Shown here piece after piece: positions 9,807-32,538 of a stretch of 35,920 nt of DNA. Under the pieces are notes generated by a model. That model saw only the letters and a list, made by a program, of their open reading frames with translations. It had not been told where the DNA came from and did no database searches. Position numbers and translations under genes: made by a program. This stretch comes from Acidobacteriota bacterium (lineage in GTDB: Bacteria; Acidobacteriota; Thermoanaerobaculia; Thermoanaerobaculales; Sulfomarinibacteraceae): contig WGCW01000043.1 of assembly GCA_015493585.1 (NCBI GenBank), positions 1 to 35,920 on the forward strand, written 5' to 3'. Positions within the stretch are counted from its first letter, which is position 1, and every line of letters starts with the position of its first letter.

Positions 9807-10021
9807 ATCGTCAAGTCGTTCGGAGCTGGCCGGGAAAACGGTGCCGGACACAGGAGTGAGCCGTTACGCCGTGCCGGCTTTGTTGCCGTTTGCGGACAGG
9901 CCGGGGAAGGTTGACGGCGCTCATTCTGCATAACGGGCCGGGTTGGTGCGTTGTGCGCCGCTTCTTTGCGAGACCGATGGGAAGAGGAACGAAACGCAGA
10001 AGCGCACAGCCATCCCTGCCT

Positions 10022-10180
10022 TGCAATCCTGAGGAGGCGAACGCTTTCCTTCCCTTGTCATCCTGAACCACGTGCCGGAGGTGAAGCCTTTCCTTCCTTG
10101 TCATCCTGAGTGGTGCGCCAAAGGCGCAGCCGCCCCTCAATTGTCATCCTGAGTGGTGCGCCAAAGGCGCACCGCGAAGG
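10022..10180. repeat. Cluster of degenerate interspersed repeat copies (core GTCATCCTGAGTGGTGCGCCAAAGGCGC)
   Basis: Copies begin at about 10057, 10100 and 10143, with a degenerate copy near 10022. The same core (other orientation) occurs at 27659-27717 and 28266-28324. Confidence 0.8.
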
Positions 10181-10652
10181 ATCTGGGCGTGGGTGGGGCT
10201 CTACTACGCCTTGCACCGGACGCGCCCACCCAAGACCGTCACGATCGCTCCAGGACGAACATCTGATCCGCGCTCCTGACGTTTTCAGCGAAAAACTTTC
10301 TTGCGCTGGCGGGGAAAAAGTCACGGCAGCGACACGCTGATATTCAACACTGTCCCCATCTCCTGAAGATCCATCGGGAGAATCTCACCGCGGAGGGCGC
10401 AGAGATTCACAGAGAGAAAAGGAGCGCACAGGCACAAGGCGGGACAGAGACGGTCTGATAGCCGGCCGGTCGCGCGGGTTTCTCCGCGTGGTTTCGCCGT
10501 TTCACCCGCTTTCCGGCGCAAACCCGCAATTCCGGCTGTCTCTTGGGGTGAAGCCGAACCTGACGCCTTGAGATCTCTCGATCCTCATTGGCTTTTCCGG
10601 CAGCGCAACAACCTCCAGGTAGACATGTCGAGCACGCGATGGGGTTATAGGG

Positions 10653-30624: not shown

Positions 30625-30731
30625 TGGTTCTGATCCGCCTTCGGCAACTTTTCACCCGGACAGCGAGAACTTTCTCCTGACGCGTGCGTTAACTTCTTTG
30701 ATGGGTGATGAGAGAGCTCTCAAAGGGGGAA

Positions 30732-31736
30732 ATGATGAACGTACGTACGCTGATCCGTCATTGTGTTTTGGCCGTTGTGATTGTCATGCTGTCCGGTGGT
30801 AGCGCTGGCGCGGCGGCGGTGCACTTTCAGAAGAGTTTCCCGGCTCAGGGTATCTCGGCGGTGCATGTCACTGTGTCCTTTCCTGATGTCCACGTGAGGG
30901 TGGCTCAAACGGCGAACGTGAAAATCGCGGTTGATCTGACCTCTCGTGAGACGGAAAAGCGGGCGGCCAAGCTCTTCGCGGCATACAAGCCGGTATATGC
31001 GGTCAAGGACGGTGTCATCACCGTCACGTCCTCGAGAAAACACCGCATGTGGCCATGGCACCATGCATCGATCTCCGGGAAGGTGACGGTCATCGTGCCA
31101 TCCGGGGTTCGTCTGGATGTCAAGACCTCGTCCGGTGACTGTGATGTTCATGGAGATCTCGGCACGGCCCCGGTCACGGCCGATACGGCATCTGGAGATG
31201 TCACGTTTGACGGATCCGCGAGCAGCATCGTTGCAGATACGGCATCGGGTGATGTCCGGCTTCATGTGGTGGGGCCCGCCGAGGCCATCAAGGCGGACAC
31301 GGCGTCGGGCGATATCGTTGTCACAGGCTCCGCGAAGCGCATCGCCGCAGATACCGCCTCGGGGGATGTCGAGCTTCATCTCGATGGAACGGCCGAGGAG
31401 ATCGACATCGTTACGTCATCGGGAGACATCACGGCTGAGGGCTTGCTGGGGAACGTCAAGGCGAGGACGAGCTCGGGTGATGTTGGCCTTTCGTGGAGGC
31501 GGCTCGATCCGGCATCTCACGTGGACGTTGCAACGGTTTCGGGCGATGTGCACCTTGTCTTCCCGGGGAAAACTGCGGTCAACGGTCTCGTCAGAACCGT
31601 GTCGGGAGAGATCCGCTCGGACTTTCCTGGAACGTTCCGCGACCATGCGCATCGTCTGGCGCTCAGCTCGGCTCGTGCCGCCGCGACCGTGACAGTTGCA
31701 ACATCATCGGGCGATGTCACCTTGAAAACCCGCTGA
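30732..31736 (+). CDS. DUF4097-type beta-strand repeat secreted/periplasmic protein
   Basis: Signal peptide 'HCVLAVVIVMLSGGSAGAAA'. About ten (T/S)xSGD repeats: ADTASGDVT, ADTASGDVR, ADTASGDIV, ADTASGDVE, VTSSGDIT, RTSSGDVG, and others. Confidence 0.88.
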   Translation: MMNVRTLIRHCVLAVVIVMLSGGSAGAAAVHFQKSFPAQGISAVHVTVSFPDVHVRVAQTANVKIAVDLTSRETEKRAAKLFAAYKPVYAVKDGVITVTSSRKHRMWPWHHASISGKVTVIVPSGVRLDVKTSSGDCDVHGDLGTAPVTADTASGDVTFDGSASSIVADTASGDVRLHVVGPAEAIKADTASGDIVVTGSAKRIAADTASGDVELHLDGTAEEIDIVTSSGDITAEGLLGNVKARTSSGDVGLSWRRLDPASHVDVATVSGDVHLVFPGKTAVNGLVRTVSGEIRSDFPGTFRDHAHRLALSSARAAATVTVATSSGDVTLKTR

Positions 31737-31738
31737 TG

Positions 31739-31959
31739 AGGTTGTTGCGCTGTGCGGAACCCGTGTGATCCCAGCGGATACGACCACGATGGAAGCACGC
31801 TCACCCCAACGCCACGGCAACCGGTCGCGGGGAGAACGCCCGAGGGAGCGCGGACTTCAGTCCGTATCGTACGCTTAACGCGTTCTGGCACAAAAAGATG
31901 CGGACTGAAGTCCGCGCTCCAAGGCTGCCTCCGGCCGGCGGGGCACAGCGCAACAACCT
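31739..31959. mobile_element. MITE-like non-autonomous element (221 bp) with 17-bp perfect TIRs and 8-bp flanking direct repeat
   Basis: Left end AGGTTGTTGCGCTGTGC (31739-31755), right end GCACAGCGCAACAACCT (31943-31959). Direct repeat CGCTGATG at 31731-31738 and 31960-31967. No coding capacity. Confidence 0.8.
31845..31920. repeat. 20-bp perfect inverted repeat nested inside the MITE-like element
   Basis: GGAGCGCGGACTTCAGTCCG (31845-31864) and CGGACTGAAGTCCGCGCTCC (31901-31920), 36-bp spacer. Each arm also contains the small palindrome CGGACT-TC-AGTCCG (or its complement). Confidence 0.9.
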
Positions 31960-31975
31960 CGCTGATGCAGCAAGC

Positions 31976-32008
31976 TTGACAGACATGGATGGCCTCTGCG
32001 CGTATAAT
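31976..32008 (+). promoter_or_regulatory. Candidate promoter: consensus TTGACA and TATAAT boxes with an atypical 21-bp spacer
   Basis: TTGACA 31976-31981, TATAAT 32003-32008, 18 bp upstream of the ATG at 32026. Confidence 0.4.
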
Positions 32009-32025: not shown

Positions 32026-32538
32026 ATGAAAAAATTCTTGGTGATCGTCATCGTTTTGTTGATTGTGGCTGGGGGGATCGGGTACCTGGTGTTGCAATCC
32101 AGACAGGCCACCGAGCTGAAGAAGGTGCAGGAGACCGCTCAAAAGAACCTCGTTGCTCAGCAGAAGAGGGATCAAAGGACCATCATCGATCTGGCCCAGG
32201 ACCTTTCTCGAACGCTGGCGGTCACGCTCGCCGATGACATCGCGCGGAAGGATTTTACGTCGGTCGAGGGGCAACTCGAGTCGGTTGTTCAGGGGCGCCG
32301 GGTGGCTGGGATCCTCGTCCTCGATCAGGATGGGAACGTTCTGGCTGCAACCGATTTGAGGTATCACGGGAGGAGAATGGACGACGCGGCGACCCGGAGT
32401 GCCCTGGGCGTGACAACCCTGACGGTTGCCTCTGAACCTCCTGCCCCAGGTCAGTTGGAAATCGATGTTCCCGTAAGCTCGGGAGGCCGCCGGATTGCGA
32501 CGTTGCGCGTCTTCTTCGTTGTGACGGCCAAAGCGTGA
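32026..32538 (+). CDS. Membrane-anchored small protein with sensor (Cache/PDC-like) character; function unknown
   Basis: 'MKKFLVIVIVLLIVAGGIGYLVLQSRQ' TM, then a helical region and 'VAGILVLDQDGNVLAATDLRYHGRRMDD'. No HAMP, kinase or MCP domain before the stop. GGAGGG RBS. Confidence 0.65.
   Translation: MKKFLVIVIVLLIVAGGIGYLVLQSRQATELKKVQETAQKNLVAQQKRDQRTIIDLAQDLSRTLAVTLADDIARKDFTSVEGQLESVVQGRRVAGILVLDQDGNVLAATDLRYHGRRMDDAATRSALGVTTLTVASEPPAPGQLEIDVPVSSGGRRIATLRVFFVVTAKA

Follow-up and report, generated by a model that had tools for sequence, protein, structure and literature searches.

A multicopy MITE-like element with perfect 18-nt inverted ends lies on the stop codon of a DUF4097 gene in an acidobacterial draft genome

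Introduction

Prokaryotic type II MITEs match their autonomous element only in the terminal inverted repeats (TIRs) (review PMC10969869). Members of the IS1634 family carry the terminal consensus C-----YT and generate AT-rich target duplications of 5-6 bp (PMC2266710). The Tn3-derived miniature elements known as TIMEs, of about 262 bp, have conserved 38-bp Tn3-type inverted repeats, 5-6 bp duplications and larger mosaic non-autonomous derivatives (PMC4133298).

We analysed a stretch of 35,920 nucleotides (the window), which is contig C43 of an Acidobacteriota draft genome of 3.10 Mb in 194 contigs. An initial annotation had proposed that a MITE-like element of 221 bp sits on the stop codon of a DUF4097 gene. 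Our analysis points very strongly to a MITE, that is, a non-autonomous DNA transposon without a transposase, which is ordinary in kind and, as a family, new to this lineage.

Results

The insertion in the window reads CGCTGATG-AGGTTGTTGCGCTGTGC...GCACAGCGCAACAACCT-CGCTGATG (Table 1). The 17-bp inverted ends recognised initially (31739-31755 and 31943-31959) have the sequence that was claimed for them, and the repeat extends to a perfect 18 nt (18/18 complementary, 100% with the repeat tool). The outermost bases are near-invariant among the complete copies found in this genome (G in 22/24, C in 21/24) and the flanks vary; with this G and C counted inside the element, exact 5-6 bp duplications are present in 16/24 copies, versus 6/24 (as repeats of 7-8 bp) with the two bases counted outside. 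The element is therefore 223 bp long with a 6-bp target-site duplication (TSD), which decides for the alternative reading of 18-bp TIRs with a GCTGAT repeat and replaces the earlier length of 221 bp. The ORFs that overlap these 223 bp are short or cross the boundary and none resembles a gene of its own, as had been proposed, and an Rfam search gave only sub-threshold chance matches.

Table 1. Coordinates of the element, its parts and its neighbours in the window.
Feature	Position	Strand	Basis or remark
Degenerate B-type mosaic, 677 bp	9939..10615	+	Second element in the window; similar ends, no TSD left
DUF4097 (PF13349) gene, stop codon kept	30705..31736	+	ORF and Pfam
Left target-site duplication GCTGAT	31732..31737	.	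Holds the TGA stop 31734-31736; sequence reading and copy comparison
Complete copy of the element, very probably a MITE, 223 bp	31738..31960	.	Inverted-repeat search and copy comparison
Left terminal inverted repeat GAGGTTGTTGCGCTGTGC	31738..31755	+	Inverted-repeat search
Internal hairpin	31845..31920	.	Arms of 24 nt, 31845-31868 / 31897-31920, 96% complementary
Right terminal inverted repeat, fully complementary to the left one	31943..31960	-	Inverted-repeat search
Right target-site duplication GCTGAT	31961..31966	.	Sequence reading and copy comparison
Promoter-like site of the next gene, CAGACA-17-TATAAT	31980..32008	+	Directly right of the element, intact
Downstream gene, no Pfam match	32026..32538	+	Protein 80% identical in G001, gene order conserved

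A single copy in the genome had been named as part of the outcome that would speak against a mobile element, and the genome search showed instead about 40 or more full or partial copies that are 86-98% identical, a lower bound with 40 of 144 candidates scored. Most complete copies are exactly 223 bp long, and the 24 with both flanks diverge from the consensus by 1-8.5%. Their 16 exact TSDs compare with a mean of 0.15 and a maximum of 2 expected from flank shuffling (2000 trials). TIR-like sites with up to three mismatches number 180 in the genome versus 1 for a reversed control pattern, so these sites are not due to chance. Variant copies measure 128 bp (L044:1094-1221, with TIRs and without the hairpin), 190 bp (L043) and 290 bp (L045, a fold-back), and several contigs have one of their ends within a copy. 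The TSD is missing from 8/24 complete copies. Some flanks of these copies match flanks of other copies or contig ends: matching of flank 5-mers across ends gave 20 cross matches versus about 8 expected, in several cases between A-type left and right ends lying on different contigs; this suggests that the TSD-less copies come from inter-copy recombination or from assembly crossovers at repeats, which the draft cannot separate, and not from a different mechanism. At L048:1-190, a TIR end is accompanied by a long inverted repeat (CCACACCATCCGGAGTTGCCCGCCAGCC) on both sides, possibly a foldback or an assembly artefact.

The whole-length fold of the element has a z of -8.4, mostly through the TIRs and the internal 24-bp hairpin, each arm of which contains a small palindrome, GCGGACTTCAGTCCG(C). 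The arms are the least variable region among copies, and with one two-sided change in 1845 cells the paired positions hold too little variation for covariation to be shown. Half-sites of the hairpin were also seen in relatives with no TIRs around them (L037, L038), which makes the hairpin look like a nested module. The palindrome GGAGCGCGGACTTCAGTCCGC also stands alone, with no TIRs, at L037 in G007 and L038 in G001; a literature search for the palindrome found no bacterial repeat paper. On the minus strand, window positions 31915-31900 form a terminator-like hairpin with a T-run inside the element, which would act on minus-strand transcripts only.

Neither the DUF4097 protein nor the promoter-like site ahead of the next gene is damaged by the insertion. 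The protein is unchanged because its TGA lies in the left duplication, in agreement with the initial proposal that the left repeat contains the upstream stop, and the insertion is probably neutral for the gene rather than disruptive. The comparison with relatives that had been suggested, in search of an empty site, led to the congener G001 (locus L202), where gene order is conserved: a DUF4097 orthologue (57% identity) precedes the counterpart of the next gene (80%), whose TATAAT is also present. The spacer between the two is 88 bp and element-free; it is too diverged to place the insertion point base by base, so that the element-free locus was confirmed while the exact pre-insertion bases could not be aligned. 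The allele preceding the insertion at 31738-31960 would read ...AAAACCCGCTGATGCAGCAAGC.... A scan of the genome-contig set with the DUF4097 protein gave no match.

The genome also holds larger sister elements, here called B-type, of 0.45-1.3 kb, which are gene-free and have the left TIR in common with the 223-bp element. Their right TIR has diverged (GAGGGCGTTGCGCTGTCC), and about 40 such right ends were found in this genome. Duplications of 5 bp (ggcca, aatcc, aggtt, cagca, gagat) flank several B-type elements, and we saw no gene of transposase size between paired B-type ends. The interiors combine other repeats (TCATCCTGAGCC..., ATTCAACACTGTCCCC...) in a mosaic; L043, L083, L095, L099, L100 and others are gene-free mosaics of the repeat families TCATCCTGAGCCGAAGGCGAAGGATCTGGG, ATTCAACACTGTCCCC and CTCTGCG...CCGCGGTT between common TIRs. 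The degenerate B-type mosaic in the window sits between a GHMP-kinase gene and a PRPP synthetase gene. At L089, an apparent IS21-type transposase ORF, as read from the sequence, lies inside another B-type element.

The same ends recur in G001, G002, G005 and G007, four relatives belonging to the window's own taxonomic family, as single TIR sites or as elements some 230 bp long bounded by the same TIRs. Within the class, more than scattered single TIR sites occurred only in the window's own family (G000, G001, G002, G005, G007). The ORFs next to isolated TIRs in G001 and G002 had no Pfam match, and contig-end repeats in G002 show an overlap of 127 bases. Across GTDB genomes the TIR pattern occurs in at least 62 stretches, which among the matches listed are mostly single sites without a partner. 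JACQVV, a Planctomycetota MAG, has three exact TIR sites (L145, L153, L184), two of them followed by the same CCCCCCGGTGG, and no transposase was seen at these sites; their presence in another phylum reflects either transfer or bin contamination. Viral contigs gave six single TIR sites and no good pair, and plasmids gave no TIR match.

A search for an IS carrying the same TIRs had been suggested: among the DDE_Tnp_1 genes and the sampled TIR sites of the element's own draft, which is fragmented at these repeats and so limits the search, and of its relatives, we found no transposase gene flanked by GAGGTTGTTGCGCTGTGC ends. The genome has three PF01609 (DDE_Tnp_1) genes, at L059, L060 and L061. 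The gene at L059:946-2646 encodes an IS1634-type transposase (NF033559, E 6e-91) and has an exact TIR copy about 220 bp away. This proximity, together with the 5-6 bp duplications that IS1634 elements also produce (PMC2266710), would fit an IS1634-family MITE mobilised by the L059 enzyme, an explanation that we nevertheless regard as improbable. The element's ends, GAGGTTGT, start with GAGG and depart from the IS1634 terminal consensus, its TSDs are mixed in composition versus AT-rich for IS1634, and L059 has no left TIR upstream; the best inverted repeats flanking this gene differ (about 78% over 18 nt), and the exact TIR nearby belongs to the end of a B-type element. L060 (IS4-like) adjoins the right end of a B-type element, yet the inverted repeats around the gene are different; L059 and L060 both appear to have other ends. 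L061 has perfect inverted repeats of its own. A profile search with PF07592 gave no match, but its control was silent too. The IS family of the element is left unassigned, as its ends do not fit IS1634 and no partner was found among the DDE_Tnp_1 genes or sampled TIR sites.

Discussion

We observed TIRs, a fixed length of 223 bp, TSDs of 5-6 bp, many copies with differing flanks and a relative whose corresponding locus is free of the element, and the initial reading of a non-autonomous, MITE-like element is well supported by the copies, their duplications and the G001 locus. In the mechanism that we propose, a DDE-type transposase made elsewhere would recognise the GAGGTTGTTGCGCTGTGC ends and move the element in trans, making a staggered cut of 5-6 bp. 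At this site the cut would have spanned the DUF4097 stop codon, and its duplication would keep the TGA in frame. The B-type mosaics, which have the same ends, were probably moved by the same enzyme. More tentatively, and with the odds against it, the TIR and its 5-6 bp TSDs may define an undescribed IS group, mostly confined to one Acidobacteriota family, whose ends bound both the hairpin MITE and the mosaics, all spread by one transposase. These results add a well-bounded, abundant MITE family and a set of mosaic sisters for a little-studied acidobacterial lineage, and the copies help to explain breaks in the draft assembly.

A palindromic repeat of REP/BIME type, mobilised by a REP-associated tyrosine transposase (RAYT), in which the hairpin would be the unit and the TIRs accessory, is a very unlikely reading of the element. 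The hairpin is indeed built of small palindromes (GCGGACTTCAGTCCGC) that are also found without TIRs in G001 and G007, but the TIRs mark the precise ends of the copies, which carry TSDs of 5-6 bp, and the 128-bp copy keeps its TIRs without the hairpin. Single-strand HUH transposition is not known to produce such TSDs. A Tn3-derived TIME, which would account for the miniature size, the 5-6 bp duplications and the larger mosaic derivatives, is likewise very unlikely, since the perfect repeat here spans 18 bp rather than the 38 bp of Tn3-type repeats and its ends are, we presume, unlike those of Tn3.

The MITE that we propose differs from each known system that it resembles. It has small palindromes nested inside it like REP/BIME repeats (PMC3733652), but possesses a TIR/TSD pair, whereas the REP/BIME unit is not known to make TSDs. 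The length of its duplications and the presence of a family transposase in the genome recall IS1634, from which it is set apart by its terminal bases and by the AT-rich target preference of that family (PMC2266710). As with TIMEs, miniature and larger mosaic elements have common ends and 5-6 bp TSDs, but the TIR differs in sequence and length and the mosaic cores here consist of other non-coding repeats (PMC4133298). From prokaryotic type II MITEs, which likewise are short, TIR-bounded, TSD-flanked, gene-free, high in copy number and able to fold back, it differs in that the searches run here identified no autonomous partner, and it otherwise agrees with them (PMC10969869).
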